Assembly: GCF_004341365.1 (NCBI RefSeq)
Contig: NZ_SLXH01000021.1
Location: 1 to 64,000, forward strand
Length of the DNA: 64,000 bases
DNA from: Simplicispira metamorpha
GTDB lineage: Bacteria; Pseudomonadota; Gammaproteobacteria; Burkholderiales; Burkholderiaceae_C
Reading direction: 5' to 3'
Within the stretch, counting starts at the first letter, position 1, and every line of letters starts with the position of its first letter. Under the pieces are notes generated by a model, which worked only from the letters and a program-made list of their open reading frames with translations, was not told where the DNA came from and ran no database searches. Positions 1,091 through 57,861 of this stretch are shown here, piece after piece. The translations under genes were made by a program, and so were the position numbers.

Positions 1091-1149
1091 TTACTCTTCT
1101 TTTGATAGCTGCTAGCGCCCAATGTGCGGGCGCTGGAGGCACTTTTTTC
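1091..1149 (+). repeat. Comamonadaceae-type intergenic repeat, copy 1
   Basis: A copy of the window-wide repeat: TTTTGATAGCTGCTAGCGCC, a short spacer, then GGGCGCTGGAGGC and a T-rich end. The GCGCC and GGCGC blocks can pair as a short hairpin. It fills the gap between the sulfatase stop and the regulator start. Confidence 0.85.
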
Positions 1150-1160
1150 CAACAATGGGC

Positions 1161-3615: not shown

Positions 3616-3683
3616 AATTACTATTTTTTTGATAGCTACTAGTGCCCACTGTGCGGGCGCTGGAGGCCGTTTTGATGCTTTAA
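3616..3683 (+). repeat. Intergenic repeat, copy 2
   Basis: A repeat copy with TTTTTTGATAGCTACTAGTG and GCGGGCGCTGGAGGC and the right end TTTGATGCTTTAAA. The TAA stop of the ATPase gene on the minus strand (3680-3682) lies inside this right end. Confidence 0.85.
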
Positions 3684-4513
3684 ATCGCAAACTGCCATTG
3701 CGTGGCCGGGGCCAGCTCGGCATCGCGCTTGAGCGGTGGCTCGGCCAGCTCGGCGGCGGGGTGGCCGGCAAACTCTTTCAGCACATCGTCTTTGACGGCG
3801 GTGAAGGCGTATGAGGTGCGCTCACGCGGGTGCGCCAGCCCCACGGGCACGGTGCGGCGGATGCGGCCCGGGCGCGGCTCCATCACCACCACCTTGTCGC
3901 CCAGGTACACGGCCTCTTCCACGTCGTGCGTGACCAAAATCATGGTGATGTTTTCCTGCCGCCAGATGCGCAGCAGCTCTTGCTGCAAGTGGGCGCGGGT
4001 CATGGCGTCCAGGGCGCCGAAGGGCTCGTCCAGCAACAAAATGTCGGGCCGGTTGACCAGCGCCCGCGCAATGGCCACGCGCTGCGACATGCCGCCCGAG
4101 AGCTGGTGCGGGTAGGCGGTTTCAAAACCGTTCAGGCCCACCAGCGCGATGTGTTCGCGCACCGTCTCGCGCCGCTGGCCCTCGGTCAGATTCGAGTTGA
4201 GCAGGCCCAGGGCCACGTTTTTCTCGACCGTGAGCCACGGAAACAGCCGATGCTCCTGGAACACGATGCCCCGGTTCAGGCTGGTGCCGGTGATGCGCTG
4301 GCCGTCGAGCAGGATGTCGCCCTGGTAGTCGCCCTCCAGGCCGATGATGAGGCGCAACAGCGTCGATTTGCCGCAGCCGCTGGAGCCGACGATGCTGACG
4401 AACTCGCCCGGCGCAATCGTCAAATCGATGTTTTGCAGCACGGGCAGCACTTCGCCCTTGACTTCGTACTGCTTGTTCAGCGCTTGGATGCGCAGGGTTC
4501 CGGCGTGTGCCAT
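3680..4513 (-). CDS. ssuB: ABC transporter ATP-binding protein, sulfonate/sulfate ester type
   Basis: A 277-residue ATPase of the nitrate/sulfonate/taurine family. Walker A is GSSGCGKST, the Q-loop region is FQEHRLFPWL, the signature is LSGGMSQRVAIARAL and Walker B is ILLLDEPFGALD, followed by the H-loop VTHDVEEA. It energises the two permeases encoded immediately upstream, from which it is separated by only 20 bases. It is the only ATPase in the operon, so it must serve both permease/binding-protein sets if both are functional. About 30 residues follow the usual end of the domain, and the stop codon is provided by a repeat copy. Confidence 0.94.
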   Translation of the reverse strand: MAHAGTLRIQALNKQYEVKGEVLPVLQNIDLTIAPGEFVSIVGSSGCGKSTLLRLIIGLEGDYQGDILLDGQRITGTSLNRGIVFQEHRLFPWLTVEKNVALGLLNSNLTEGQRRETVREHIALVGLNGFETAYPHQLSGGMSQRVAIARALVNRPDILLLDEPFGALDAMTRAHLQQELLRIWRQENITMILVTHDVEEAVYLGDKVVVMEPRPGRIRRTVPVGLAHPRERTSYAFTAVKDDVLKEFAGHPAAELAEPPLKRDAELAPATQWQFAI

Positions 4514-10460: not shown

Positions 10461-10470
10461 CTGAAAAACG

Positions 10471-10534
10471 CTACTGAAAAAATAGCTGCTTGCGCCCAAC
10501 CTGTAAGGGCTGGAGGCCGATTTGGCCTCAAAAA
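10471..10534 (+). repeat. Intergenic repeat, copy 4
   Basis: AAAATAGCTGCTTGCGCCC, a spacer, AGGGCTGGAGGCCGATTTGG and a right end rich in A. It sits between the terminator and the molbindin stop. Confidence 0.8.
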
Positions 10535-13176: not shown

Positions 13177-15315
13177 ATGGCCGAACCCCTGGACTGGCTG
13201 GACGACGGCACGCCCTACAGCCCCCGCTTTGGCGACCGCTACCACAGCGAACAAGGCGGTCTGGCGCAGGCGCGCGAGGTGTTTTTGCACGGCTGCGGCC
13301 TGCCAGCGGCCTGGGCCCATCAGCCGCAGTGGCGCATTCTGGAAACCGGCTTTGGCTTTGGCCTGAACTTCCTCACCACCTGGGCCGCCTGGCGCGCCGA
13401 CCCGCAGCGCCCCCAGCTGCTGCACTTTGTCTCGCTCGAAGCCTGGCCCGTGGCCGCAGACGACCTGCTGCGGGCCACCCGCGTCCATCCCGCACTGGCG
13501 CCACTGACCCAGGAGCTGCACCGCCACTACTGGGGGCTGCTGCCGGGCATCCACCGCATCGCCCTCGATGGCGGCCAGGTGCTGCTGACGCTGTGCATTG
13601 GCGATGCGCAAACGCTCTTGCGCCAGCAGGACTGGACGGTGGACTCGGTGTACCTGGATGGCTTCAGCCCCCAGCGCAACCCCGAGGTGTGGAGCCTGCA
13701 CACGCTCAAGGCCGTGGCGCGCTGCTGCCGGCGCGGCACGCGCCTGGCCACCTGGACGGTGGCGCGCGCCGTGCGCGACGACCTGGCGCAGTGCGGCTTC
13801 ACCGTGGCCAAAGTGCCCGGTGTGCCGCCCAAGCGCGACAACCTGCACGCCACCTTCGACCCGCGCTGGGAGCCGCGCCAGGCGCAGGCGGCCAGCGCTG
13901 CCCATACAGCCAGTGCCGCGCCCGGGGCCACCCCTGCGCCCGGCGCCAGTGCAACACCTGGCACCGGCACACCCGCGCGCTGCATCGTCATTGGCGCGGG
14001 CCTGGCCGGTGCTGCTGTGGCTGCCAGCCTGGCACGGCGCGGCTGGCAGGTGCAGGTGCTCGACCAAGGTGACGCACCGGCAGCCGGTGCCTCGGGCCTG
14101 CCAGCGGGGGTGTTTGCGCCCCATGTCTCGGTCGATGACAGCGTGGTATCGCGCCTGTCGCGCAGCGGCGTGCGCGCCACGCTGCAAGCCGCCGCCCAGT
14201 ACCTGCAAGAAGGCACGGACTGGCAACCCAGCGGCGTGCTGCAACACCACGTGGATGGCAAACGCGGCCTGCCCACCGACTGGGACGCTGGCCCCGGCGC
14301 CGACTGGAGCCACGCTGCCCCCGACGTGGTGCGTGCAGCCCTGGGCATCGCGCCGGGCGTGGGCGCCACCTGGCACCGGCGCGGCGGCTGGATTCGGCCC
14401 GCGCGGCTGGTGCAGGCCTTGCTGGCCCAGCCGGGCGTGCAGTTTCACGGCGGGCAGGCCGTGGCCCGGCTGGTGCGCGTTGCCAACTCCAGCGCCGACC
14501 TGTGGCAAGCCCTGGACGCCCAGGGCCGCGTGCTGGCCAGCGCCCCGCTGGTGGTGGTGGCCACTGGTTTTGGCAGCCCGCAGCTGCTGGCCCAGACCGA
14601 CCCCGCCCTGGCCCGCTGGCCGCTGGGCATCGTGCGCGGCCAGGTCACCGGCGCGCGCCAGGCCGACCTGCCCTGGCCAGGCCCGGCCTTCCCGGTCAAC
14701 GGCCATGGCAACGCCGTGCCCGCCTTTGTCTGGCCCGATCCAGCGCCCGCCCAGACCGGTGCCGCGCCCGCAACCGCTGCGGCAGATATGTCATGGATTG
14801 CGGGTTCCACCTTTGAGCGCGGCCCGGCCAGTGTCTGGCCGCCCGCAGCCCCGGAGCAAGCCGCCGCACACCACCACAACCTGGGCAAACTGCAAGCCCT
14901 GCTGCCCGGCAGCGCCTTGCCGTGGACGACCCTGCCGACACCCACGCCAGCGCAACCACCAGCGCAACCACCAGCGCAGGAGCCAGCGCCACACGCCGCC
15001 CCCGCAGACGCAGCGCCCCTGCCCCCCAGCCTGCGCCACTGGGCCGGTATCCGCTGCGCCAGCCCCGACCGCCTGCCGCTGGTCGGCCCGGTCGATGCGC
15101 AGGCGCTGCCCGGCCTGTGGGTCAGCACCGCCATGGGCGCGCGCGGCCTGACGCTGGCCCTGCTGTGCGGCGAGCTGCTGGCCGCCCGCCTGCACGGCGA
15201 ACCCCTGCCGCTGGACAGCAAGCTGGCCCAGGCGCTGGATACTGCGCGGATGGACAAGCCAGCGCGGGGCGACACAGCAGCGCCCGCCAAAAACAGGGGT
15301 CAAATTGGCCTCTAG
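13177..15315 (+). CDS. mnmC: tRNA 5-methylaminomethyl-2-thiouridine biosynthesis bifunctional protein MnmC
   Basis: A 712-residue bifunctional enzyme that completes the mnm5s2U34 modification of tRNA. The N-terminal methyltransferase domain (about 1-230) has the SAM loop ETGFGFGLNFLTTW and the YLDGFSPQRNPEVW motif. A Pro/Ala/Thr-rich linker (about 240-265) leads to the FAD-dependent oxidoreductase domain, with VIGAGLAGAAVAASLARRG and GLPAGVFAPHVS. A second Pro/Gln/Ala-rich insert (about residues 586-612, partly a 12-base tandem repeat near 14945-14978) interrupts the FAD domain and is probably a loop. The start ATG at 13177 gives MAEPLDWLDDGTPYSPRFGD, the family start. The last residues (RGQIGL) and the stop are encoded by an inverted repeat copy. 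Confidence 0.95.
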   Translation: MAEPLDWLDDGTPYSPRFGDRYHSEQGGLAQAREVFLHGCGLPAAWAHQPQWRILETGFGFGLNFLTTWAAWRADPQRPQLLHFVSLEAWPVAADDLLRATRVHPALAPLTQELHRHYWGLLPGIHRIALDGGQVLLTLCIGDAQTLLRQQDWTVDSVYLDGFSPQRNPEVWSLHTLKAVARCCRRGTRLATWTVARAVRDDLAQCGFTVAKVPGVPPKRDNLHATFDPRWEPRQAQAASAAHTASAAPGATPAPGASATPGTGTPARCIVIGAGLAGAAVAASLARRGWQVQVLDQGDAPAAGASGLPAGVFAPHVSVDDSVVSRLSRSGVRATLQAAAQYLQEGTDWQPSGVLQHHVDGKRGLPTDWDAGPGADWSHAAPDVVRAALGIAPGVGATWHRRGGWIRPARLVQALLAQPGVQFHGGQAVARLVRVANSSADLWQALDAQGRVLASAPLVVVATGFGSPQLLAQTDPALARWPLGIVRGQVTGARQADLPWPGPAFPVNGHGNAVPAFVWPDPAPAQTGAAPATAAADMSWIAGSTFERGPASVWPPAAPEQAAAHHHNLGKLQALLPGSALPWTTLPTPTPAQPPAQPPAQEPAPHAAPADAAPLPPSLRHWAGIRCASPDRLPLVGPVDAQALPGLWVSTAMGARGLTLALLCGELLAARLHGEPLPLDSKLAQALDTARMDKPARGDTAAPAKNRGQIGL

Positions 15316-15352
15316 CCCTTGCGCAGTAAGCGCAAGCAGCTATGCATTTTGA
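15298..15352 (-). repeat. Intergenic repeat, copy 5 (inverted)
   Basis: Read on the minus strand it begins GCATAGCTGCTTGCGCTTAC and ends AGAGGCCAATTTGACC. It overlaps the 3' end of mnmC and supplies its TAG stop at 15313-15315. Confidence 0.8.
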
Positions 15353-15390
15353 ATGCACCACCGACGGTAGAACGCTGCGCACAAAATGCT

Positions 15391-15450
15391 ACTTTATTCA
15401 TAGCTGCTTGCGCCCACCAGTCGGGCGCTGGAGGCATTTTTGGCATCAAA
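15391..15450 (+). repeat. Intergenic repeat, copy 6
   Basis: TTCATAGCTGCTTGCGCCCA, then CGGGCGCTGGAGGCATTTTT and GGCATCAAAG. It faces copy 5 across 38 bases, giving an inverted pair that could form a long cruciform between mnmC and the TSUP gene. Confidence 0.85.
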
Positions 15451-15513
15451 GACAAAGCCCTTCCCAGCGCTATCCTCGATTTTCAAATAACCAAATTCAC
15501 ATATTGGGAGAAC

Positions 15514-18568: not shown

Positions 18569-19329
18569 TGACCAGCAGCCTGCTTTCTGCGCGCGGCGCC
18601 GCTGCCAAAGCCACCGCCGTCCATGCCCGCGCCAGCGCCGACTTTGCCGCCAAGCTGGAGCAAACCCGCGCCGTGCTGCGCCAGGCCGCCGCCCTGGGCG
18701 CGCCGGGTGCGGTCACGCAGGCCTCCAGCCTGGGCGCTGAAGATGTGGTCATCACCCACCTCATCAACGCGCTGGCCCTGGACATCCCCGTGTTTGTGCT
18801 GGACACCGGCGCGCTGCACACCGAAACCCTGGCCCTGCTGGAGCGCACGCAAGCGCACTCGCGCGCGCCCATCGTGGTTTACAAGCCTGCGTTCGATGGC
18901 GTGATCGAGTTTGTGCGCCAGAACGGCCAGGACGCCATGTACCGCAGCATCGAGCTGCGCAAACAGTGCTGCCACATCCGCAAGATGGAGCCGCTGGCGC
19001 GCGCGCTGGCGGGCAAGCAAGGCTGGATCACCGGCCTGCGCCGCGAGCAATCCAACGCCCGCGCCGAGGTGCCGCTGGTGGACACCGCCGAGGTCGCCAG
19101 CAAGGGGCTGACCAAGTTCAACCCGCTGGCTGACTGGACGCTGGGCGACGTCTGGCACTACATCGCCGAGAACCAAGTGGACTACAACCCGCTGCACGAC
19201 CAGTTCTTCCCCAGCATCGGCTGCGCGCCCTGCACCCGCGCCATCAGCCTGGGCGAGGACTTCCGCGCCGGCCGCTGGTGGTGGGAAAGCGAGGATGCGA
19301 AGGAATGCGGCTTGCACGTCAAAAAATGA
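18565..19329 (+). CDS. cysH: Adenylylsulfate (APS) reductase, iron-sulfur type
   Basis: A 254-residue thioredoxin-dependent reductase of the CysH family. The two cysteine pairs QCCHIRK and GCAPC bind a 4Fe-4S cluster and mark enzymes that reduce APS rather than PAPS. SSLGAEDVVITHLI is the nucleotide-binding P-loop-like motif, and the C-terminal ECGLH contains the catalytic cysteine. The absence of an APS kinase (cysC) in the cluster agrees with direct use of APS. The start overlaps the DUF934 stop (ATGATG). The TGA stop lies inside repeat copy 7. Confidence 0.95.
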   Translation: MMTSSLLSARGAAAKATAVHARASADFAAKLEQTRAVLRQAAALGAPGAVTQASSLGAEDVVITHLINALALDIPVFVLDTGALHTETLALLERTQAHSRAPIVVYKPAFDGVIEFVRQNGQDAMYRSIELRKQCCHIRKMEPLARALAGKQGWITGLRREQSNARAEVPLVDTAEVASKGLTKFNPLADWTLGDVWHYIAENQVDYNPLHDQFFPSIGCAPCTRAISLGEDFRAGRWWWESEDAKECGLHVKK

Positions 19330-19375
19330 TAGCTGCTAGCGCTTACCCCATAAGCCTTAGAACCAGATTTGACTG
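19321..19375 (+). repeat. Intergenic repeat, copy 7
   Basis: ATGATAGCTGCTAGCGCTTA, then AAGCCTTAGAACCAGATTTG. It fills the whole cysH-cysD spacer, supplies the cysH stop codon and forms most of the cysD leader. Confidence 0.75.
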
Positions 19376-19383
19376 GAAATAAT

Positions 19384-20330: not shown

Positions 20331-21695
20331 ATGAGCACTACGAATTCGATAGCTACCAGCGCGCATCCAGCGGGCGCTACGGGCACAAATGACCACATTT
20401 CTGCGCTGCGCTTCATCACCTGCGGCAGCGTGGACGACGGCAAAAGCACGCTGATTGGCCGCCTGCTGGTCGATAGCAAAGCTGTGCTGCAAGACCACCT
20501 GGCGGGCGTGCAGCGCCAGGGCGAAACCGATCTGGCGCTGCTCACCGATGGCCTCAGCGCCGAGCGTGAGCAGGGCATCACCATCGACGTGGCCTACCGC
20601 TACTTCGCCACCGAAGACCGCAAGTTCATCATTGGCGACGCGCCCGGCCACGAGCAGTACACGCGCAACATGGTGACGGCGGCCTCGCAGGCCGATGCGG
20701 CCGTGGTGCTGGTGGACGCCACCAAGCTCGACTGGCAGAACCCGCAGCTGCCCCTGTTGCCACAAACGCGCCGCCACAGCCTGCTGGTGCATTTGCTGCG
20801 CGTGCATTCGCTGGTGTTTGCCGTCAACAAACTCGACGCCGTGGCCGACCCCGAACTGGCCTGGAAGCACATCAGCGCCGCGCTGGAGCGCTTTGCCCAA
20901 GAGGCGGGCATTGCCGTACACACCACGGTGCCGGTGTCGGCGCTCAAGGGCTGGAACGTGGTCGATGCCCACAGCGGCTGGTGCGGCTACACCGGCCCGA
21001 CGCTGCTGCAAATTCTGGAGCAGCTGCCCAACACGCCCACCGATGCGCATTTGCCGCTGGCCTTTCCGGTGCAGTGGGTGGAAAAGTTCCACGACTCTGC
21101 CGTCACCACGCAGGGGCGGCGCGTGTTCTGGGGCCGTATGGCCGCAGGCAGCGCCACCGTGGGCGCCGAGGTGCAAATCTTCCCCAGTGGCCAGAAGGCC
21201 GTGGTGGCCCAGGTGATTGACCACGCCCGCCGCGCAGGCAGCGTGGCTGCGGGCCTGAGCGCTGGCATCACCCTCGACCGCGAGGTGGACGTGTCGCGCG
21301 GCGACTGGATCGTGGCCGCCCCGGTGGCCGCTGCCGTGGCCGAAGACGACTTCGACACCCCCGCCGCCGCCAGCGCCTGGCCGGGGCGCAAAGAGCTGCC
21401 TGCCACCATCGCCTGGATGGACGACGAACCGCTGGTGGCCGGGCGCACCTACTGGGCGCTGCACGGCCACCGCTGGGTCAAGGCCAAGGTGCGCCGCGTG
21501 GTACACCGCCTCAACATCAATACGCTGGCCGAAGAAGACGCCACGCAGCTGGAGCCCAACGCCATCGGCCATGTCGAGCTGCTGCTGCAAGAAGCGCTGC
21601 CCGCTGCGCCGTTTGCCCAGGCGCGCGTGCTCGGTTCGCTGATTTTGGTGGACACGGCCAGCCACAAAACCGCTGCCGCCGTGCTGGTGAACTAG
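20331..21695 (+). CDS. cysN: Sulfate adenylyltransferase subunit 1 (GTPase)
   Basis: A 454-residue elongation-factor-like GTPase that drives APS synthesis by CysD. G1 is GSVDDGKSTLIGRLL, G3 is DAPGHEQYTRNM, G4 is VNKLDA. There is no C-terminal APS kinase domain, in contrast to CysNC fusions. The N-terminus before the GTPase domain (about residues 4-20, SIATSAHPAGATGTN) is not conserved-looking and is encoded by a repeat copy at 20343-20396. A start further downstream is not available because the domain itself begins near residue 25. It follows cysD by 14 bases. Confidence 0.96.
   Translation: MSTTNSIATSAHPAGATGTNDHISALRFITCGSVDDGKSTLIGRLLVDSKAVLQDHLAGVQRQGETDLALLTDGLSAEREQGITIDVAYRYFATEDRKFIIGDAPGHEQYTRNMVTAASQADAAVVLVDATKLDWQNPQLPLLPQTRRHSLLVHLLRVHSLVFAVNKLDAVADPELAWKHISAALERFAQEAGIAVHTTVPVSALKGWNVVDAHSGWCGYTGPTLLQILEQLPNTPTDAHLPLAFPVQWVEKFHDSAVTTQGRRVFWGRMAAGSATVGAEVQIFPSGQKAVVAQVIDHARRAGSVAAGLSAGITLDREVDVSRGDWIVAAPVAAAVAEDDFDTPAAASAWPGRKELPATIAWMDDEPLVAGRTYWALHGHRWVKAKVRRVVHRLNINTLAEEDATQLEPNAIGHVELLLQEALPAAPFAQARVLGSLILVDTASHKTAAAVLVN
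20343..20396 (+). repeat. Repeat copy 8, translated within cysN
   Basis: TCGATAGCTACCAGCGCGCA, then AGCGGGCGCTACGGGCACAA and ATGACC. It begins 12 bases after the cysN start codon and is read in frame, giving a low-complexity N-terminal extension. Confidence 0.75.
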
Positions 21696-27694: not shown

Positions 27695-27732
27695 CCCCGG
27701 CCCACCACAGGCTGCGTACCCACAAAAATCAA

Positions 27733-27830
27733 TCAAAAAGAATAGCTGCTTGCGCATGCCGTACAAAGCTTTCAGGCTTAAAAGTGCCTGAAACCAGCAC
27801 CCAGTAAGCGCGACTAGCTCTTTTTTCTAG
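27733..27830 (+). repeat. Repeat copy 9 plus inverted half copy
   Basis: AGAATAGCTGCTTGCGCATG followed by a degenerate right half ending near 27790. At 27802-27830 a half copy lies in inverted orientation (minus strand AGCTAGTCGCGCTTACTG). Together they fill the gap between the permease and the SH3 protein gene. Confidence 0.65.
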
Positions 27831-37775: not shown

Positions 37776-37840
37776 TTACTATTAAATTAATAGCTACTAG
37801 CGCCCGATACACAAGGGCTATAGCCTGATTTGACCTTAAA
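37776..37840 (+). repeat. Intergenic repeat, copy 10, abutting the serC start
   Basis: AATTAATAGCTACTAGCGCC, then AAGGGCTATAGCCTGATTTG and ACCTTAAAA. Its right end lies directly before the serC ATG at 37843, so it forms the whole translation leader; no Shine-Dalgarno is visible. Confidence 0.85.
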
Positions 37841-37842
37841 AA

Positions 37843-38952: not shown

Positions 38953-40064
38953 CCCAGGCCCCTCTGATGAACACGCCCCACACCTCTCCCGATCTCTCCA
39001 GTCTGCGCGTACAGATCGACAACATTGACCAGCAATTGCTGACCCTGCTGAATCAGCGCGCGCTGGTGGCAGAGCGCGTCGGCGAGGTCAAAAAGCGCGA
39101 AGGCACGCCCTTTTTCCGGCCCGACCGCGTTGCGCAGGTCATTGAAAAAATCCAGACAGCCAACCCCGGGCCGCTGAAGAATGCCCATGTCACCGCCATC
39201 TGGCGCGAGATCATGTCGGCCTGCCTGGCGCTGGAGTCACCCCAGCGGGTGGCTGTACTGGGCCCCGAAGGCACGTTCTGCGAACAGGCCGCCGTCGAAT
39301 ACTTTGGCGGCGCTGCCGACCTGATGTACTGCGCCAACTTTGACGAGGTGTTCCACGCCACGGCAGCGGGCAGCGCGCAGTTTGGCGTGGTCGGCGTGGA
39401 AAACTCCACCGAAGGCGTGGTCACGCGGTCGCTGGACATGTTCTTGCACACGCCCTGCCATGTGGTGGGCGAGGTCAGCCTGCTGATCCGGCACAACCTG
39501 CTGCGCCAGACCAACACGCTCGATGGCATTGAAGCCGTGCTGGCCCACCCGCAGGCACTGGCACAGTGCCAGGCCTGGCTGTCCAAGCACCTGCCCCACG
39601 CCGAGCGCCGCCCCGTCTCCAGCAACGCCGAGGGCGCGCGCCTGGCGGCCACCAACCCGGCTTGGGCAGCACTCTCAAGCGAGCGTGCCGCACAGCAGTT
39701 TGGCCTGCACATCGTCTCGCACGCCATCCAGGACGATGCCTACAACCGCACCCGTTTTGCCATCATCTGCCTGCCGCACACCTTGCAGACGCCACCGCCC
39801 TCCAGCAAAGACTGCACCAGCTTGATTGTTTCCGTACCCAACCACCCCGGTGCGGTACACGATCTGCTGGTGCCGCTCAAGCGCCACGGCGTCTCGATGA
39901 CGCGCTTTGAGTCGCGCCCGGCACGCACCGGCCAGTGGGAGTATTACTTCTACATCGACATCGACGGCCACCCCAGCCAACCCCACGTCAGCGCCGCGCT
40001 GACCGAGCTGCGGGCGCTGTGCGCTTTTTACAAAGTTCTGGGCACCTACCCTGTAGCGCCTTGA
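38949..40064 (+). CDS. pheA: Bifunctional chorismate mutase/prephenate dehydratase
   Basis: A 371-residue P-protein for phenylalanine synthesis. The AroQ chorismate mutase domain (about 15-100) has [20 protein letters not shown] and [10 protein letters not shown]. The dehydratase domain (about 105-280) has [15 protein letters not shown] and the [11 protein letters not shown] motif. A C-terminal ACT domain (about 285-365, [33 protein letters not shown]) is the phenylalanine-feedback site. Start ATG at 38949 overlaps serC (ATGA); a second ATG six codons later is possible. The tyrA gene follows after 9 bases. Confidence 0.97.
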
Positions 40065-40073
40065 GGAAACCGC

Positions 40074-40958
40074 ATGTTTGAACAACTCGGCCTGATTGGC
40101 TGCGGCCTGATGGGCGGCTCGTTTGCGCTGGCGCTCAAGCGCGCTGGCCTGGTACAGCGCGTGGTGGGCTACAGCAAATCTCCTTCCACCACCGACCGCG
40201 CCCGCCAGATGGGTGTGATTGACGTCGAGGCCCCTTCGGCCCTGCTGGCAGTAGCGGGCGCCGACATCGTGCTGCTGGCCGTGCCTGTATCGGCCACCGA
40301 AGCCACGCTCAAAGCCATCAAACATTTGGTCACGCCCAATATGCTGGTCATGGATGTGGGTTCCACCAAAACCGATGTGGTGCAGGCGGCGCGGCGTGCG
40401 CTGCGCGATCAGGTTGGATCGTTCGTTCCGGCCCACCCCATCACGGGCCGCGAGGTTTCGGGCGTCGAACACGCCGAGGCGGACTTGTACAGTGGCCGCC
40501 AGGTCATTCTCACGCCCATTGAGCGCACACTCACGGCGCAGCTGAAAAAAGCCGAAGAAGTCTGGACTGCACTGGGCTGCCGCGTCTCCAGCATGTCGCC
40601 AGAATCCCACGATGAGGCATTTGCCGCCATCAGCCACTTGCCCCACCTGCTGGCTTTCGCCTTCATCAATGGCCTGGCGGGCCAATCGCAGGCCGATACG
40701 TTCTTGTCTTTGGCTGGCCCGGGGTTTCGGGATTTCACCCGCATTGCCGGTGGCGAGCCCAAAATCTGGCGCGATATCTTTCTGGCCAACCGTGAAGAAC
40801 TCCTGACCCAATCGCAGCTGTTCCAACAGGCTTTGCAGCGCCTGGAGCACCTGGTGCGCAGCGACGATCCACAAGCCCTCGAAGACATGCTCACCCTGGC
40901 CAGCGAAACCCGCACCCACTGGCGCATGGGCGCACAACGCACCAGCAAAGGCCGCTGA
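40074..40958 (+). CDS. tyrA: Prephenate dehydrogenase
   Basis: A 294-residue NAD(P)-dependent enzyme making 4-hydroxyphenylpyruvate for tyrosine. GLIGCGLMGGSFALALKRAG is the dinucleotide-binding loop, VMDVGSTKTDVV and PAHPITGREVSGVEHAEADL are the substrate-site motifs. There is no fused chorismate mutase or ACT domain. The stop is followed directly by the aroA start (40959), so translation is coupled. A histidinol-phosphate-type aminotransferase gene often found between pheA and tyrA is absent. Confidence 0.95.
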   Translation: MFEQLGLIGCGLMGGSFALALKRAGLVQRVVGYSKSPSTTDRARQMGVIDVEAPSALLAVAGADIVLLAVPVSATEATLKAIKHLVTPNMLVMDVGSTKTDVVQAARRALRDQVGSFVPAHPITGREVSGVEHAEADLYSGRQVILTPIERTLTAQLKKAEEVWTALGCRVSSMSPESHDEAFAAISHLPHLLAFAFINGLAGQSQADTFLSLAGPGFRDFTRIAGGEPKIWRDIFLANREELLTQSQLFQQALQRLEHLVRSDDPQALEDMLTLASETRTHWRMGAQRTSKGR

Positions 40959-42983
40959 ATGTTCAGCACACCGTTTCTCGATATTCCCGCCTTGAGCGGC
41001 GCTGCTGGCAGCGTGCGCCTGCCCGGCTCCAAGAGCATCTCCAACCGCGTGCTGCTACTGGCCGCCCTGAGCCACGGCACCACCACCGTCCACGACCTGC
41101 TGGCCTCGGACGACACCCGCGTCATGCTGGACGCACTCAAAGCCTTGGGCTGCGGCGTCGAAGAAGAAGGCACGCAAGCGCGCATTACCGGCCTGGGCGG
41201 GCGCACACCGCAGTCGCCCGCAGCACTGTTTCTGGGCAATGCCGGCACGGCCATGCGCCCGCTGACAGCCGCGCTGGCACTGCTGGGCGGCGAGTTCACG
41301 CTCAGCGGCATCGCGCGCATGCACGAGCGCCCGATTGGCGACCTGGTGGACGCCCTGCGCCAGCTGGGCTGCCAGATCGACTACCTGGGTCAAGATGGCT
41401 ACCCGCCGCTGCGCATCGCCCACGCCACGGGCGTGCCGCCGCTGCAACTGGGGCAACCGATCCGTGTGCGTGGCGATGTCTCCAGCCAGTTTCTCACCGC
41501 CTTGCTCATGGCCCTGCCGCTGGCAGCCACTGAGCAGGATGTGGTCATCGAAGTGGTGGGCGAACTGATCTCCAAGCCCTATATCCACATCACCTTGCAA
41601 CTGCTGGAGCGCTTTGGCATCTGCGTGGCGCACGACCAGTGGCAACGCTTCACCATTCCGGCGGGCAGCCGCTATCAGTCGCCCGGCGACATCCACGTTG
41701 AAGCAGACGCCTCTTCTGCTAGCTATTTCATAGCTGCTGGCGCAATTGCAGCGGGCGCTGAAGGCCAAAATGGCATCAAAATTCTGGGCGTGGGGCTGGA
41801 TTCGATCCAGGGCGATATCCGCTTTGTGGATGCGGCCCGTGCCATGGGCGCGCACATCACCGGCGGCCCCAACTGGCTACAGATTGAACGCGGCCAGTGG
41901 CCCCTGAAGGCCATTGACCTCGACTGCAACCACATCCCCGACGCCGCCATGACGCTGGCGGTGATGGCGCTGTACGCCCAAGGTACCACCGTGCTGCGCA
42001 ACATTGCCAGCTGGCGCGTCAAGGAAACCGACCGCATCGCCGCCATGGCCACCGAGCTGCGCAAACTCGGCGCTACCGTGGAAGAAGGCGCCGATTTCAT
42101 CCGCGTGGCACCACCAGCCTCTGTAGCTAACTGGAAGGCTGCCAGTATCCACACCTACGATGACCACCGCGTGGCCATGTGTTTTTCGCTGGCAGCATTC
42201 AACCCGGCGGGCCTGCCAGTGCGCATCGAAGACCCGCAGTGCGTGGCCAAAACCTTCCCGGATTACTTTGAAGCGCTGTTTTCGGTGGTGCGCGCAGAGC
42301 AAATCCCCGTCATCTGCCTTGATGGCCCCACGGCCTCGGGCAAAGGCACGGTGGCCGCCCGGGTGGCGCAGCAACTGGGCTACCACCTGCTCGATTCGGG
42401 CGCGCTCTACCGCATCGTGGCACTGGCTGCGCGGCGTGCTGGCCTGCCGCTGGATGCCAGTGCCGAAGCGGCCATTGCCGACCTGGCGCAACAGCTGGCC
42501 ATTCGTTTCGAAGGCGACCGGGTGCTGCTGGCCAGCGAAGACGTGACCGAAGCCATTCGCACCGAACAAGCGGGCATGGACGCCTCCAGCGTATCGGTGC
42601 TGCCAGCGGTACGCACCGCACTGGTGGCGCTGCAACACAGCTTTCGCCGCCTGCCCGGCCTGGTCGCCGATGGCCGGGACATGGGCACCGTGATTTTTCC
42701 GGACGCACCACTGAAGGTGTTTCTCACGGCCAGCGCAGCGCAGCGCGCCCACAGGCGGCATGCGCAGTTGCTGTCCAAAGGCATTTCGGCTAACATTGCC
42801 GACCTTCTTGCAGACCTTGAGGCGCGCGACGCACGGGATATGTCCCGCAGCACAGCTCCCTTGCAGGCCGCACAAGATGCGCTGGCACTGGACAGCACAC
42901 AGCTCACGGCAGATCAAACCGTGGGCCAAGTGTTTGAATGGTGGCAGCAACAACAGCCTTTCACCCCCGGGGTGCAGAGCTGA
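40959..42983 (+). CDS. aroA: Fused EPSP synthase (AroA) and cytidylate kinase (Cmk)
   Basis: A 674-residue fusion. Residues 1-about 446 form EPSP synthase of the shikimate pathway, class I by [10 protein letters not shown] (21-30) and [12 protein letters not shown] (93-104), with [18 protein letters not shown] and the catalytic [10 protein letters not shown] and KETDRI stretches. From about 449 the cytidylate kinase begins, with P-loop GPTASGKGT (456-464), [24 protein letters not shown] and the [13 protein letters not shown] lid. Separate aroA and cmk genes are adjacent in other beta-proteobacteria; here they are one frame without an intervening start. Residues 256-275 ([20 protein letters not shown]) are encoded by a stretch matching the window's repeat family. 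Confidence 0.96.
41724..41783 (+). repeat. Repeat copy 11, in frame inside aroA
   Basis: TTTCATAGCTGCTGGCGCAA, then GCGGGCGCTGAAGGCCAAAA and TGGCATCAAA. Compared with copy 6 at 15391-15450, the blocks CATAGCTGCT, GCGC, GGGCGCTG, AGGC and GGCATCAAA are identical. It encodes the conserved Tyr-Phe-Ile-Ala-Ala-Gly segment of EPSP synthase. Confidence 0.75.
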
Positions 42984-43155
42984 AAACGGGGCGCTAAACC
43001 CCACCGGCCCACACTGCCTCCCACCGCGCGCCTGCGCACAGACAGTGTGGTTCTTGTCACTTAACCTGCGGCACCGCCGCACAGCAAACCACCACCGACA
43101 GCCTTTGAAACTGCGCCATCGTGCCGCAGTAAACCTGTCAGTGGCAAGGAAACAC
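42984..43155 (+). other. rpsA leader
   Basis: A 172-base leader before rpsA without a recognised gene or clear promoter. AAGGA at 43147-43151 is the likely ribosome binding site. In many bacteria the rpsA leader folds and mediates autoregulation by S1; I did not establish a structure here. Confidence 0.4.
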
Positions 43156-44841
43156 ATGTCAGAATCTTTTGCCGCCCTTTTTGAAGAATCCCTGCAGCGT
43201 ACCGAAATGCGCCCTGGCGAGGTCATCACCGCCGAAGTCGTGCGCGTGGAACACAGCTTCGTCGTCGTGAACGCTGGCCTCAAGTCTGAAGCCTACGTAC
43301 CGCTGGAAGAATTCAAAAACGATCAGGGCGAAGTCGAAGTTCAAGTGGGCGATTTCGTCTCCGTGGCCATCGGCTCGATCGAAAACGGTTACGGCGACAC
43401 CATCCTGTCGCGTGACACCGCCAAGCGCCTGGCCTCCTGGCTGGCCCTGGAAAAGGCCCTGGAATCCGGCGAATTCGTCACCGGCACCACCAGCGGCAAG
43501 GTCAAGGGCGGCCTGACCGTTCTGGTCAACGGCATCCGCGCATTCCTGCCCGGTTCGCTGATCGATACCCGTCCGATCAAGGATCTGACGCCGTACGAAA
43601 ACAAGACCATGGAATTCAAGGTCATCAAGCTGGATCGCAAGCGCAACAACGTGGTGCTGAGCCGCCGCGCTGTGGTGGAAGCCTCCATGGGCGAAGAGCG
43701 CGCCAAGCTGATGGAAACCCTGAAGGAAGGCTCCATCGTTCAAGGCGTGGTCAAGAACATCACCGAATACGGTGCGTTCGTGGACCTGGGCGGCATCGAC
43801 GGCCTGCTGCACATCACCGACATGGCATGGCGCCGTGTCCGTCACCCCTCCGAAGTGGTCACTGCCGGCCAGGAAATCACCGCCAAGATCCTCAAGTTCG
43901 ACACCGAGAAAAACCGTGTCTCTCTGGGTCTCAAGCAAATGGGTGACGATCCATGGATGGGCGTGTCGCGCCGCTACCCACAAAGCACCCGCCTGTTCGG
44001 CAAGATCACCAACATCGCCGACTACGGCGCGTTTGTTGAACTCGAACCCGGTATCGAAGGCCTGGTGCACGTTTCCGAAATGGACTGGACGAACAAGAAC
44101 ATCGCTCCTTCCAAACTGGTCACGCTGGGCGACGAAGTCGAAGTCATGGTTCTCGAAATCGACGAAGACAAGCGCCGCATCAGCCTGGGCATGAAGCAGT
44201 GCAAGGCCAACCCTTGGCAAGAATTCGCACAAAACACCAAGCGCGGCGACCGCGTCAAGGGCCCGATCAAGTCGATCACCGACTTCGGCGTGTTCGTGGG
44301 TCTGGCTGCTGGTATCGACGGCCTGGTGCACTTGTCTGACCTGTCGTGGAACGAAGCGGGCGAAGCCGCTGTCCGCAATTACAAGAAGGGCCAGGAAGTC
44401 GAAGCCATCGTGCTGGCCGTGGACGTGGATCGCGAACGCATCTCCCTGGGCATCAAGCAGCTCGACGGCGACCCGTTCACCACCTTCGTGACCGTGAACG
44501 ACAAGGGCCAGACCGTGACCGGCAAGGTCAAGACCGTGGACGCCCGTGGCGCTGAAATCGATCTGGGTGAAGACATCATCGGTTACCTGCGTGCTTCGGA
44601 AATCTCCCGCGACCGCGTGGAAGATGCCCGCAACGTGCTCAAGGAAGGCGACGAAGTCACTGCCGTGGTGGTCAATGTGGATCGCAAGACCCGCAACATC
44701 CAGTTGTCGATCAAGCAAAAGGACATGGCCGACGAACAAGGCGCCATGGCCAGCCTGAGCCAACAAGCCAGCCGCGAAAGCGCCGGCACCACCAGCCTGG
44801 GCGCCCTGCTGCGCGCCAAGCTGGACAACTCCGACAAGTAA
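43156..44841 (+). CDS. rpsA: 30S ribosomal protein S1
   Basis: A 561-residue protein with six S1 (OB-fold) domains, which brings mRNA to the 30S subunit. The start [20 protein letters not shown] is characteristic. Domain repeats are visible as [40 protein letters not shown] and [20 protein letters not shown], each followed by a conserved SLGLKQ/SLGMKQ/SLGIKQ ending. The cmk(aroA)-rpsA-ihfB order is conserved in proteobacteria. Codon use is strongly biased, as expected for a highly expressed gene. Confidence 0.98.
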
Positions 44842-53244: not shown

Positions 53245-53615
53245 GCGCCTCCGTGCTGCCGCTGTGGGCTGAAATCACCATCGCCGCGCTGGTGCTGTGC
53301 GGCGCAGCCATCGCCCTGCTGGGTTCGGTGGGTTTGCTGCGCCTGCCCAGCTTCTTTGAACGCGTGCATGCCCCCGCCATGATTGCCACGCTGGGCTGCT
53401 GGTGCACCATGTATGCGGCGCTGCTGTACTTTTCACTGCGCGGCGGCAGCCTGGCCGCACACCTGCTGCTGATTGCCGCCTTCATCGCCATCACCGTACC
53501 CATCACCACCATCTTTCTCATGCGCGCCGGGCTGTTCCGGGCCCGCCAGGCACGGCGCCCCGGCATCCCTCCCAGCCTGAGCCGGATCACGCCGTCGGAT
53601 GTTCGTGACTCCTGA
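53241..53615 (+). CDS. mrpG: Monovalent cation/H+ antiporter subunit G
   Basis: A 124-residue protein with three membrane helices and the MrpG core GSVGLLRLPSFFERVHAPAM. It closes the mrpAB-C-D-E-F-G operon. Its stop lies at the left edge of repeat copy 12. Confidence 0.94.
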   Translation: MSASVLPLWAEITIAALVLCGAAIALLGSVGLLRLPSFFERVHAPAMIATLGCWCTMYAALLYFSLRGGSLAAHLLLIAAFIAITVPITTIFLMRAGLFRARQARRPGIPPSLSRITPSDVRDS

Positions 53616-53673
53616 AACCATAGCTGCTCGCGCCCGCCACACAAGCCTTGCAGGCGCTTTTGACCTGATTTTC
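53612..53673 (+). repeat. Intergenic repeat, copy 12
   Basis: AACCATAGCTGCTCGCGCCC, then AAGCCTTGCAGGCGCTTTTG and ACCTGATTTTC. It starts at the mrpG stop codon and fills much of the gap to crcB. Confidence 0.8.
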
Positions 53674-53756: not shown

Positions 53757-54149
53757 ATGTCCCTGACCGCCATCGCCAGCATTTGCATCGGCGCCAGCCT
53801 GGGCGCGCTGGCGCGCTGGCGCCTGGGCCTGTGGCTCAGTGCCGGGGCCGCCCTGCCCTGGGGCACGCTGGCGGCCAATCTGGTGGGCGGCTACCTGGTG
53901 GGCGTGTGCGTGGCCGCCTTCCAGGCGCTGCCGCAACTCGACCCGGCGTGGCGGCTGGCCCTGGTCACTGGCTTTCTGGGCGCGCTCACCACCTTTTCCA
54001 GCTTCTCCGCCGAAGTAGTCGCCCTGCTACAGCAAGAGCGCTACCTGCTGGCGCTGGGCTGGAGCACGCTGCACCTGCCGGGCTCATTGCTGATGACGGT
54101 GCTGGGCATCAAAAGCACTACACTTTTCATAGCTTACTGCGCCCGATAG
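53757..54149 (+). CDS. crcB: Fluoride efflux channel CrcB/Fluc
   Basis: A 130-residue four-helix membrane protein. GASLGALARWRLGLWL is the first-helix motif, WGTLAANLVGGYLVGV carries the conserved asparagine, and VTGFLGALTTFSSFSAEVV is the pore-lining phenylalanine region. CrcB dimers export fluoride. No fluoride riboswitch was recognised upstream. The last residues (about KSTTLFIAYCAR) and the TAG stop are encoded by repeat copy 13, so the natural C-terminus has been replaced. Confidence 0.93.
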   Translation: MSLTAIASICIGASLGALARWRLGLWLSAGAALPWGTLAANLVGGYLVGVCVAAFQALPQLDPAWRLALVTGFLGALTTFSSFSAEVVALLQQERYLLALGWSTLHLPGSLLMTVLGIKSTTLFIAYCAR

Positions 54150-54180
54150 ACGCGGCCTGAAAGCCATTTTCAGTCAAACC
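54117..54180 (+). repeat. Repeat copy 13, overlapping the crcB 3' end
   Basis: ACTACACTTTTCATAGCTTA, CTGCGCCCGATAG, then CGGCCTGAAAGCCATTTTCA and GTCAAACC. It supplies the last eleven or so codons and the stop of crcB. Confidence 0.75.
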
Positions 54181-55155: not shown

Positions 55156-55213
55156 ACTATTGATTTGATAGCTGCTTGCGCCCTTCCAGCGGGCGCCAGA
55201 GCCAGTTTTTATT
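55156..55213 (+). repeat. Intergenic repeat, copy 14
   Basis: TTTGATAGCTGCTTGCGCCC, then AGCGGGCGCCAGAGCCAGTT and a T-rich end. The TAA stop of rmuC (minus strand, 55209-55211) lies in its right end. Confidence 0.85.
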
Positions 55214-56768
55214 CAATATCTTCGGCCAGCGCCGCAGCGCTGCCTTCGGGTGCGGGCAGCGCCTGCACATCGCGCAGCTTGCGCTGGATGGCGCGGGTGC
55301 GCACGCCCACCTCGTCAAACTTCTTGGCGGCAGCATCGATGGATTTTTTGGTGGCATCGACCGCGTCGCCAAACTTGGCAAACTCCGTCTTGACCATGCC
55401 CAGCAGGTGCCAGACCTCGGACGAGCGCTTTTCAATCGCCAGCGTCTTGAAGCCCATTTGCAGGCTGTTGAGCATGGCCGCCAGGTTGGCCGGGCCCGTC
55501 ACCATCACGCGGCAATCGGTCTGGATGAACTCCACCAGCCCCGGGCGGCGCATCACTTCAGCGAACAAGCCCTCGGTGGGCAAATACAGCACGGCAAAGT
55601 CGGTGGTGTGCGGCGGCGAGACGTATTTGCTGAAAATCTTTTTCGCCTCCAGCTTGATGGAAGTCTCGAAAGCATTGCCCGCCGATGCGATGGCCAGCTT
55701 GTCCGCCGTGTCCTGCGCGTCCATCAGCCGCTGGTGCTGCTCTACGGGGTATTTGGCGTCAATGGGCAGCCACACCGGGTGCTCATCGCTGCGGCCCGGC
55801 AGGCGGATGGCAAATTCCACCAGCTCATCGCTGCCCGGCACGGTTTTCACGTTTTTGGCGAACTGGTCGGGCGTGAGCACGTTGTCGATGATGGCCCCCA
55901 GCTGCATCTCGCCCCAGGTGCCGCGCGAGCGCACGTTGGTCATCACGCGTTTGAGGTCACCGACGCTGCCGGCCAGGGTCTGCATCTCGCCCAGGCCCTT
56001 GTGGACTTGCTCCAGCCGCTCAGACACCAGCTTGAACGATTCGCCCAGGCGCTGCTCCAGCGTGGCGTGGAGCTTTTCGTCCACGGTGCGGCGCATTGCT
56101 TCAAGCTTGGTGGCGTTGTCTTGCTGGATGGCGGCCAGGCGCTCGTTGAGCGCGCTGCGCAACTGCTCGGCGCTGTGCTGGTGGCCCTGCGCCATGCCGG
56201 TGAGTTGCTGCGAGACGGCGTCTTGCAGCACGGCAAACTGGTTCTTGATTTGCCCACCGTTGCCTTCGAGCTGGTCTTTCAGCGCGGTGGACATCACGCC
56301 CAGCTGCCCCTGGATGTCGGATTTGAGCGAGTCCAGCGTCTGGCGCGTGGCCGCCGTCAACGCCTCAAAGCGCTCCTGGATGCGCTGCTCGAACAGCGCC
56401 GCGCTCTCGGCCATGGCGGTGCGTGCCTGCACGGTTTCGCTCGCCAGCGAGGCGACGATGGTCTGCTGCTCCGTGCGGCCACTGCGCGATTCGGCCACAG
56501 CCTGGGCCAGCTGGGCATCGACCGCGTGGCGCAGGGTTTCGAGCGTGGTGTTGGTGTGCTGGGTAAAGCCGCGCAGCTGCTGGGCCAGGCCGTTGAAGGC
56601 ACCGTCGTTCTTGGCCATGGCCAGTTGCGTGGCCTGGGCCAGTTGCTCCAGCGCCTGCAAGCGCTGTGGCCATTCGGGCGGCAAATCGACGCGCGGGCGC
56701 CGCACCAGCAGCACCGCCTGCAACACCACGACGACGGCCAACGCGGCCAGCACAAGTTCTGTTTGCAT
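55209..56768 (-). CDS. rmuC: DNA recombination protein RmuC
   Basis: A 519-residue protein with an N-terminal membrane helix (LVLAALAVVVVLQAVLLV), a long coiled-coil region (about 40-260) and the RmuC domain (about 265-490) with VRSRGTWGEMQLGAIIDNVL, WLPIDAKYP and LYLPTEGLFAEVM. RmuC limits inversions at short inverted repeats and is a predicted PD-(D/E)XK nuclease-like protein. It is interesting that the window is rich in short inverted repeats. ATG at 56768 gives MQTELVLAAL; the longer frame passes through a repeat copy. Confidence 0.93.
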   Translation of the reverse strand: MQTELVLAALAVVVVLQAVLLVRRPRVDLPPEWPQRLQALEQLAQATQLAMAKNDGAFNGLAQQLRGFTQHTNTTLETLRHAVDAQLAQAVAESRSGRTEQQTIVASLASETVQARTAMAESAALFEQRIQERFEALTAATRQTLDSLKSDIQGQLGVMSTALKDQLEGNGGQIKNQFAVLQDAVSQQLTGMAQGHQHSAEQLRSALNERLAAIQQDNATKLEAMRRTVDEKLHATLEQRLGESFKLVSERLEQVHKGLGEMQTLAGSVGDLKRVMTNVRSRGTWGEMQLGAIIDNVLTPDQFAKNVKTVPGSDELVEFAIRLPGRSDEHPVWLPIDAKYPVEQHQRLMDAQDTADKLAIASAGNAFETSIKLEAKKIFSKYVSPPHTTDFAVLYLPTEGLFAEVMRRPGLVEFIQTDCRVMVTGPANLAAMLNSLQMGFKTLAIEKRSSEVWHLLGMVKTEFAKFGDAVDATKKSIDAAAKKFDEVGVRTRAIQRKLRDVQALPAPEGSAAALAEDIE

Positions 56769-56778
56769 TGTCTGTGAT

Positions 56779-56834
56779 TTACTATTATTTTGATAGCTAT
56801 AAGCGCTTATCTGGCGGGCGACAAATGCCAATTT
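56779..56834 (+). repeat. Intergenic repeat, copy 15
   Basis: TTTTGATAGCTATAAGCGCT, then TGGCGGGCGACAAATGCCAA. It fills the spacer between rmuC and the dehydrogenase gene. Confidence 0.75.
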
Positions 56835-56844
56835 GCTTCTATTT

Positions 56845-57861
56845 TTACAACCGGTTGGCGCTGCTACGCTGGTGCGCTGGCGCCGCGTCGGGGGTGTTGA
56901 CCGGCGTCAGTGCCCCGCGCCCGCCCAAAAAGGCGATCAGGTTGTCGGCGGCCAAATCGGCCATGGCGCGGCGCGTGGGCACGGTGGCGCTGGCAATGTG
57001 CGGTGTGAGCACCACGTTGGGCAAGTCCAGCAGGGCCGGATGCACCTGCGGCTCGCCCTCGAACACGTCCAGCCCGGCGGCGGCAATGCGCCGCTGGCGC
57101 AGCGCCTCTGCCAGTGCCGCGTCATCAACGATGCCGCCGCGCGCAATGTTGACCAGCGTGGCGCTGGGCTTCATCTGCGCCAGCTCGGGCGCACCGATGG
57201 TGTGGTGTGCCTCTGCCGTGTAAGGCAGCACCAGCACCAGGTGGTCGGCGCTGCGCAGCAATTCGTCTTTACTGACGTAGCGGGCGCGACACTGGGCCTC
57301 GGTGGCAGCATTCAGGCGCGTGCGGTTGTGGTAGATGACGTTCATGCCAAAGCCGTGCGCGCCGCGCCGCGCAATGCCCTGGCCGATGCGGCCCATGCCC
57401 AAAATTCCCAGTGTGCTGGCGTGGATGTCGGCGCCCGCCAACAGGTCATAGCGCCAGGTGGTCCACTGCCCGGCACGCAGGTAGTGCTCGGCCTCGGCCA
57501 TGCGCCGCGCGGTGGCCATGAGCAGTGCAAAGCCGAAATCGGCCGTGGTTTCGGTCAGCACATCGGGCGTGTTGGTGCCTTGCACGCCAGCACGGGTCAG
57601 CGCCTCCACATCAAAGTTGTTGTAGCCCACGGCCATGTTGGCCACGATGCGCAGGCGCGGGCAAGCGGCCAGCAGTGCAGCATCAATGCGCTGGCTGCCG
57701 GTGGTGAAGGCGCCGTCTTTGTCGGCCAGGCGCGCAGCCAGCTCGGCAGGAGTCCAGATGGCGTCGGCCTGGTTAGCCTCGACGTCAAAGTGCTCGGACA
57801 AGCGCTGCACCACCTCAGGAAAAATAGCCCGGGTGATAAGAATGCGGGGGCGTGCGGTCAT
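56845..57861 (-). CDS. D-2-hydroxyacid dehydrogenase (glyoxylate/hydroxypyruvate reductase type)
   Basis: A 338-residue NAD(P)H-dependent enzyme. The nucleotide-binding loop is LGILGMGRIGQGIARR, and the catalytic residues lie in NIARGGIVDD (Arg), FEGEP (Glu) and LTPHIAS (His). The NMAVGYNNFDVEAL stretch places it with glyoxylate/hydroxypyruvate reductases (GhrB type). The ATG at 57861 matches the family start (MTARPRILITRAI). It lies 32 bases after the antiporter gene in the same direction. Confidence 0.92.
   Translation of the reverse strand: MTARPRILITRAIFPEVVQRLSEHFDVEANQADAIWTPAELAARLADKDGAFTTGSQRIDAALLAACPRLRIVANMAVGYNNFDVEALTRAGVQGTNTPDVLTETTADFGFALLMATARRMAEAEHYLRAGQWTTWRYDLLAGADIHASTLGILGMGRIGQGIARRGAHGFGMNVIYHNRTRLNAATEAQCRARYVSKDELLRSADHLVLVLPYTAEAHHTIGAPELAQMKPSATLVNIARGGIVDDAALAEALRQRRIAAAGLDVFEGEPQVHPALLDLPNVVLTPHIASATVPTRRAMADLAADNLIAFLGGRGALTPVNTPDAAPAHQRSSANRL

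Follow-up and report, generated by a model that had tools for sequence, protein, structure and literature searches.

A segment of aroA matches a dispersed ~65-bp repeat of Comamonadaceae-type bacteria, possibly as a DNA site kept in trans

How does part of a gene for a conserved enzyme come to be spelled like a repeat that lies mostly between genes? The question is raised by aroA in the window, by which we mean the whole 64,000-nucleotide stretch of Simplicispira metamorpha DNA analysed here. In this window aroA and cmk are joined in one ORF, within the gene order serC-pheA-tyrA-aroA/cmk-rpsA (37843-44841), as named from the encoded proteins. The 674-residue product matches the Pfam domains EPSP_synthase (6e-121, residues 16-440) and Cytidylate_kin (5e-66, residues 452-661). 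A preliminary description had recognised blocks of the repeat inside aroA and offered two explanations: either the repeat had replaced native codons while the protein was kept, or the repeat family derives from aroA and spread from there.

The repeat blocks are present in aroA, where the match extends further and is cleaner than first described, with 44 of 63 bases identical in an ungapped alignment of 41718-41780 with the window copy at 15388-15450. The bounds 41724-41783 originally given to the segment need correction, since its true start lies 6 bases further upstream. Aligned without gaps to each of the 339 detected copies, the segment reached 46/63 at best, and 200 shuffled versions of it at most 31/63. 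A profile built with the aroA-cmk ORF masked assigned 49.9 bits to the segment, and -29.7 bits was the highest score elsewhere in the gene. When the peptide was recoded synonymously with local codon usage, scores averaged 4.4 bits (sd 7.4, maximum 44.7) and none of 200,000 recodings reached 49.9 bits, which implies that the match goes beyond what protein sequence and codon usage provide. Furthermore, BLAST searches with a 180-nt aroA region returned, besides aroA orthologues, repeat-like places elsewhere in the genomes of relatives, with E values down to 6e-11. The assignment of the segment to a conserved AroA motif holds for its 5' part only, which corresponds to the strongly conserved motif of 10 residues; the 3' part codes for a variable loop that is 5 residues longer than in two solved EPSP synthases compared by alignment. 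Coordinates are collected in Table 1.

Table 1. Repeat copies in the window and elements of the aroA segment
Feature	Position	Strand	Basis
AroA-Cmk fusion ORF, 674 aa	40959..42983	+	ORF list; Pfam domains
In-frame coding repeat copy, aroA residues 254-274	41718..41780	+	Masked-ORF profile; alignment to copy 15388
Core block ATAGCT, holding the rare Ile codon ATA	41730..41735	+	Repeat columns 12-17
5' core block GCGC	41740..41743	+	Repeat columns 22-25
3' core block GCGC	41755..41758	+	Repeat columns 37-40
3' part AGGCCAAAATGGCATCAAA, coding for loop part GQNGIK	41762..41780	+	Alignment with copy 15388; loop variable in relatives
Repeat copy	1093..1157	+	nhmmer E 2.9e-8
Repeat copy	3620..3684	+	nhmmer E 1.4e-7
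Repeat copy	10470..10534	+	nhmmer E 3.1e-10
Repeat copy, head-to-head with copy 15388	15291..15355	-	nhmmer E 4.8e-11
Repeat copy, the window's best match to aroA	15388..15452	+	nhmmer E 4.8e-10
Repeat copy	19317..19381	+	nhmmer E 6.1e-8
Repeat copy overlapping the called start of gene 20331-21695 (rough gene call)	20337..20401	+	nhmmer E 1.8e-5
Weak repeat copy	27730..27794	+	nhmmer E 7.2e-4
Repeat copy upstream of the gene presumed to be serC	37778..37842	+	nhmmer E 1.6e-9
Repeat copy	53608..53672	+	nhmmer E 9.1e-6
Repeat copy, window-only model; outside the 12 copies of the 27-genome set	54117..54177	+	E 1.4e-10, window alone
Repeat copy	55156..55220	+	nhmmer E 5.5e-10
Repeat copy	56781..56845	+	nhmmer E 1.9e-6

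The repeat unit spans ~65 bp with the core CT-n9-ATAGCT-n4-GCGC-n11-GCGC-n4-G-n1-C-n3-TT at fixed spacing, contains the imperfect inverted repeats GCTAT..ATAGC and GCGC..GCGC, and has a consensus GC content, counted by hand over the 339-copy family, of ~44%. The search covered the window plus 125 further stretches (126 in all, from 27 genomes) and yielded these 339 copies, at one copy per ~3-20 kb depending on the genome. The profile search gave 376 hits at E 0.01 and 339 at E 0.001, all 339 of which were kept; the same search of the reversed stretches gave no hit at E 1e-3 and one at E 1e-2, indicating that false hits are rare. Eight of the window's copies share 61-88% identity with a ninth. 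The head-to-head copies at 15291-15452 are separated by 32 bases, four tandem copies with a spacing of ~165 bases occur in genome G040 (L190:18047-18609), and the window also carries a GC-rich tandem repeat with an 18-base unit at 34558-34647.

With correct spacing, one mismatch allowed and the end read as AGNC, which includes exact AGGC, the pattern matched in 50 of 200 genomes of the same family, with up to 342 matches per genome; an exact pattern one base shorter with an AGGC end matched in none of the 200. A sequence-only model applied at E 1e-5 with stricter filters detected the repeat in none of 78 genomes from other families of the order. The 80 genomes examined across the order further comprised the genome of the window itself, which matches, and one genome of the same family, which does not. 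The repeat family is thus seen in one bacterial family, of Comamonadaceae type, and there in many genera. A search of the openly licensed PubMed Central literature did not turn up a description of the present repeat.

According to a rough gene caller, 89 of the 339 copies lie in genes, 86 in convergent, 132 in tandem and 27 in divergent gaps, and 5 at edges. As all gaps of at least 60 bases comprise 184 convergent, 678 tandem and 256 divergent ones, convergent gaps are over-represented among the intergenic copies (86/245 versus 184/1118, gap length uncontrolled). The 89 coding copies use all six frames, two of which dominate, one on the same strand (29 copies) and one on the opposite strand (30 copies). 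The dominant same-strand frame encodes a peptide similar to xxxxIAASAxxASA. Several copies in this frame start at residues 2-8 and look by eye like signal peptides, such as IAASALLASA (L277:17785-17849, L203:14931-14995, L263:16143-16207, L195:3000-3064); one of these four ends in a lipobox-like LVACS, and the L277 protein carries a copper-binding domain. Judged from these peptides, the dispersed repeat may supply secretion signals to some proteins.

Conserved genes other than aroA also hold a copy at a common place. In RlmD-like orthologues the repeat lies on the opposite strand and was detected in 23 of 30 loci at E <=2e-5 in a stretch of ~450 nt; the L254 protein matches Pfam tRNA_U5-meth_tr and is presumably RlmD. 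A same-strand copy was present in 14 of 17 readable acyl-CoA dehydrogenase loci (18 in total, L369 not covering the place), and the loci of G028, G034 and G032 were without one. With in-frame copies in aroA, the RlmD-like gene and the acyl-CoA dehydrogenase gene, aroA is not unique.

Comparison of aroA among relatives revealed two states. From 125 loci, one of which had no stop-free full-length match and five of which were duplicates, we obtained 119 distinct genes. The Ile codon following SYF is ATA, as in the repeat haplotype, in 74 of them and an ordinary codon in the other 45; elsewhere in the 74-gene group ATA makes up 103 of 2066 Ile codons. The segment scored a median of 33 bits in the ATA group versus -32 bits (maximum -5) in the non-ATA group, the maximum of background windows being -13; two of the 74 ATA genes score on the native side and 72 are repeat-like. 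Concordantly, GCT matches the repeat in 65 of the 74 genes (5.2 expected) and in 0/45 of the other group, and TAT does so in 70/74 (18.9 expected). The 74 genes carry third-position T 51 times at column 20 (3.2 expected) and 57 times at column 41 (6.7 expected), and third-position A 63 times at column 50 (20.2 expected); columns 23 and 26 behave as expected and columns 29 and 32 fall below expectation. Repeat-state loci include Giesbergeria, Acidovorax, Extensimonas, Rhodoferax, Comamonas, Curvibacter and Polaromonas, and native loci belong to Variovorax, Limnohabitans, Ramlibacter and one Acidovorax (L017). The nearest named aroA locus is that of a Giesbergeria MAG, with 87% AroA identity. 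In L108, the aroA of G011, the reading shifts to SIQGISVS soon after the repeat segment, possibly by a frameshift or a sequence error.

The distance between flanking anchors in aroA is mostly 183 nt in the repeat state versus 171-210 nt in the native state. Since the repeat-state length lies inside the native range and insertion of 65 bp would add ~21 codons, the codons were replaced in place, without insertion of a unit. Insertion was rejected for RlmD as well, where the repeat-free locus of G032 (L353) is 7 codons shorter and the native L352 is equal in length. The two-state block and the unchanged length class fit the first of the two explanations, namely replacement of native codons with the protein kept. 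In a midpoint-rooted aroA tree built without the segment, in which many nodes are weak, we counted 19 state changes versus a mean of 37 after shuffling (minimum 29 in 300 shuffles), with L073 and L027 counted as native at segment scores of -24 and -18 bits; the inferred state at the root was the repeat state.

The state of aroA goes together with the abundance of the family in the genome. The ATA state was found in 28 of 34 genomes with at least five pattern copies versus 17 of 166 others (Fisher p 7e-17, uncorrected for kinship), a tally counted by hand from the lists of pattern matches and aroA states. With a looser model, for which matches were counted up to a maximum of 133 per genome, 14 of these 17 genomes had at least 11 matches and three had 1 to 3; native controls without pattern copies had 0 to 2 matches in nine of ten cases and 24 in one. 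The outcome that the preliminary description had named as refuting, identical aroA bases in repeat-free relatives, is not seen in most of them; three ATA-state genomes are nearly copy-free. Since six of the 34 repeat-rich genomes have the gene in its native state, a copy in aroA is not obligatory.

Within the genus, pattern counts over 26 genomes, some of them incomplete, were 0 in G001, G004 and G007, 13 in G009 and 40-234 in the other 22; the low counts of the first three had been predicted ahead of counting. The looser model found 1, 6 and 5 matches in G001, G004 and G007, respectively, the best at E 5e-11 in G004. The RlmD copy was undetected in these three genomes or had an E value above 0.03. 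The aroA gene was native in G001, the only one of the three whose aroA was read; BLAST with the aroA region did not find the G007 gene. G001, G004 and G007 form a single clade (support 1.0) nested in the genus and adjoining G009 (support 0.68), so that the family was lost once and not three times. The clade that is nearly without dispersed copies is thus also without the RlmD copy and, where read, without the aroA copy.

Moreover, the aroA copy follows the deviations of the repeat in its own genome. Over 21 genomes, those of the 27 with at least 8 sampled copies, the aroA segment exceeded expectation by 4.24 bits (p 5e-5, the lowest value that 20,000 permutations can give), and by 4.59 bits with the same p of 5e-5 when one genome per genus was used (12 genomes); an earlier version with 13 genomes pointed in the same direction. 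At the other 24 register shifts the values lay between -1.1 and 2.1 bits, with shift -6 the highest (p 0.002) and shift -1 at p 0.047. The signal resides in columns 12-48, where the variable loop and 3' GCGC block contribute most, with none in the protein-fixed columns 0-11 or in columns 49-62. The own genome ranked first in 6 of 21 cases and 7th or worse in 8 of 21. For RlmD the tracking amounted to 2.86 bits (p 0.005) with equally high values in wrong registers; as it is not register-specific, it is no replicate of the aroA result.

Constraint on the copies was assessed in eight comparisons of orthologous copies at four loci, which were picked because both members had a copy, a choice that favours core conservation. 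Differences amounted to 21 of 160 positions in core columns, 45 of 120 in variable columns, and 151 of 800 (5') and 136 of 798 (3') in the partly coding flanks within 100 nt; at one place whose 5' flank looks intergenic by rough gene calls, 97 of 300 flank positions differed. The core is therefore slower than the flanks by little (13% versus 17-19%), and the variable columns are about twice as fast as the flanks. Orthologous copies, at 13% core and 38% variable differences, nevertheless remain more alike than random copies within one genome, which in six genomes differed by 16-22% in the core and 64-72% in the variable columns. Strong overall synonymous constraint on the aroA motif was not seen: its 10 codons show a synonymous change of 0.26 versus 0.31 per same-residue codon in the rest of the gene (Fisher p 0.043, rank 77 of 436 windows), and as this rate is scarcely below that of the rest, constraint on the whole motif is weak. 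The top synonymous-codon conservation of aroA in the repeat-state group falls on residues 391-399 (NWKAASIHT, window 42129-42155).

Selection for a DNA site and recurrent conversion are both compatible with in-place replacement, dependence on the family and tracking. The explanation we prefer, to which we give somewhat less than an even chance, is that the aroA segment genuinely belongs, and has long belonged, to a family of ~65-bp DNA sites spread over the genome and kept in trans by a putative binding factor. Such a factor would most likely be a sequence-specific DNA-binding protein, whose site preference would drift by lineage; sites in coding sequence would be fitted through codon choice and through the free residues of a flexible loop. 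EPSP synthase would lend itself to this with the Ala-rich stretch SYFIAAGAI, the codons of which can be written as the core, and with a loop a few residues longer. Loss of the factor or of the family would let the codons drift back to the genomic norm, and the protein would stay. We lean towards site selection because the copies in a genome are diverse outside the core while the core recurs. The reading as sites maintained in trans is weakened by a core that is scarcely slower than the flanks and by fast variable columns, which copying would also give, as well as by the single loss event, the weak constraint on the motif and the six repeat-rich genomes with native aroA.

Recurrent gene conversion or template switching, in which other copies overwrite partly matching coding sequence such as the Ala-rich part of aroA and coding copies decay once the donors are lost, is a strong competitor that has a fair share of the probability without reaching half of it. 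Its case is built on own-genome tracking, to which the variable loop and 3' GCGC block contribute most, the block-wise haplotype in aroA, the in-place replacement with small length changes and the 19 state changes on the aroA tree. The fast variable columns of orthologous copies (45/120, above the flanks at 151/800 and 136/798) likewise speak for conversion; the two readings are close. However, copies in one genome stay diverse in core and variable columns alike (16-22% and 64-72%), and orthologous copies resemble each other more than random ones do (13% and 38%).

A single ancient capture by aroA, followed by vertical inheritance and decay without maintenance, appears improbable to us. It would agree with the repeat state at the root of the aroA tree, with 19 changes where shuffling gave a mean of 37, with the weak synonymous constraint on the whole motif and with the three ATA-state genomes that are down to 1 to 3 copies. 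It accounts poorly for three rare codons that, over several genera, are retained by 65 to 74 of the 74 genes, for the genome-specific tracking, and for the like behaviour of RlmD, in which absence of the copy goes with absence of the family. That the family arose from aroA and spread, the second explanation of the preliminary description, is very hard to maintain. The in-frame repeat peptide does resemble the conserved SYFxAAxA motif and the aroA copy is old and widespread, but native aroA genes score a median of -32 bits, repeat-free genomes mostly have ordinary codons, good copies are embedded in other genes, including the opposite strand of RlmD, six repeat-rich genomes are without the ATA state, the aroA copy is gone from the copy-free clade where it was read, and the repeat occurs in 0/78 genomes from other families of the order. 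Chance or protein-level constraint can be practically dismissed: the peptide itself lifts the score (recoded mean 4.4 versus -29.7 bits for the next best window), but 0/200,000 recodings reach the observed value and 74/119 orthologues have ATA, 72 of them with repeat-like scores.

Several candidate identities and functions of the repeat were rejected. A hairpin or RNA as the selected feature is disfavoured by a mutual information between columns of at most 0.10 bit over 339 copies; standard pairs amounted to 77.5% versus 77.2% after shuffling (103 copies), that is, no excess covariation, and Rfam gave no match at the gathering score in the window. KOPS is a polar chromosome motif with strand bias along the replichores. 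The window alone hints at such polarity, with 11 of 12 copies on the plus strand, which did not hold up across all 126 stretches, the window among them: of 515 within-stretch pairs, 275 are on the same strand, and there is no link to GC skew (Fisher p 0.55). REP elements are linked to Y1 (RAYT-type) transposases. Dependence on these was rejected for our repeat, since PF01797 is present in 136 of 200 genomes and absent from the repeat-rich G002 (145 pattern copies); G152, G213 and G243, with 39, 7 and 53 copies, are likewise outside the PF01797-matching genomes among the 200. REPs resemble the present repeat in being short and of high copy number, with enrichment between convergent genes in our case. 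They differ in being palindromes of 20-40 bp according to PMC3733652, whereas the ~65-bp unit lacks excess pair covariation.

In MITEs the inserted unit bears terminal repeats and is often accompanied by target duplications; among the loci compared here, no clean empty insertion site was found. ERIC and other MITE-type repeats share with our repeat the occurrence of intergenic and intragenic copies, some coding for signal-like segments, as PMC2229807 reports signal or membrane segments for these elements. Nearest in kind are the Rickettsia palindromic elements (RPE), small dispersed repeats of 105-146 bp with long stem-loops that are inserted in-frame in conserved protein genes as well as between genes (PMC2229807). 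Compared with RPE as described there, the present unit is ~65 bp, replaces codons in place and shows no excess covariation, and the same site is common to many genera, its presence being tied to the genome-wide family. Nearest in host range is BRE (Hot et al. 2011, PMC3110155), which is likewise dispersed in Betaproteobacteria including Comamonadaceae and mostly intergenic, with some copies in genes. BRE is described there as 75-91 bp long, with 69% GC in Bordetella, often tandem and with up to 29 copies per genome. By that description it differs in length and GC content from our ~65-bp, ~44% GC repeat with up to 342 matches per genome.

Small intragenic repeats are usually viewed as inserted junk that the protein tolerates. 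Here the same codons of a housekeeping gene are affected in many genera without a 65-bp insertion, and their presence is linked to the family elsewhere in the genome. Should conversion be the cause, dispersed repeats would be exchanging sequence ectopically with a core biosynthetic gene. Should site selection be the cause, it would be a clear example of a conserved enzyme shaped by information other than that for the protein, with part of its sequence dictated by a DNA site instead of by the enzyme. Carried further, and with more doubt than confidence on our side, a lineage-specific chromosome-organising or DNA-handling protein of Comamonadaceae-type bacteria might need hundreds of ~65-bp sites, strongly enough to write codons of EPSP synthase and RlmD, which would drift back once the protein is lost. 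The contrast between the family-free clade and its relatives makes this putative trans factor findable by comparative genomics.
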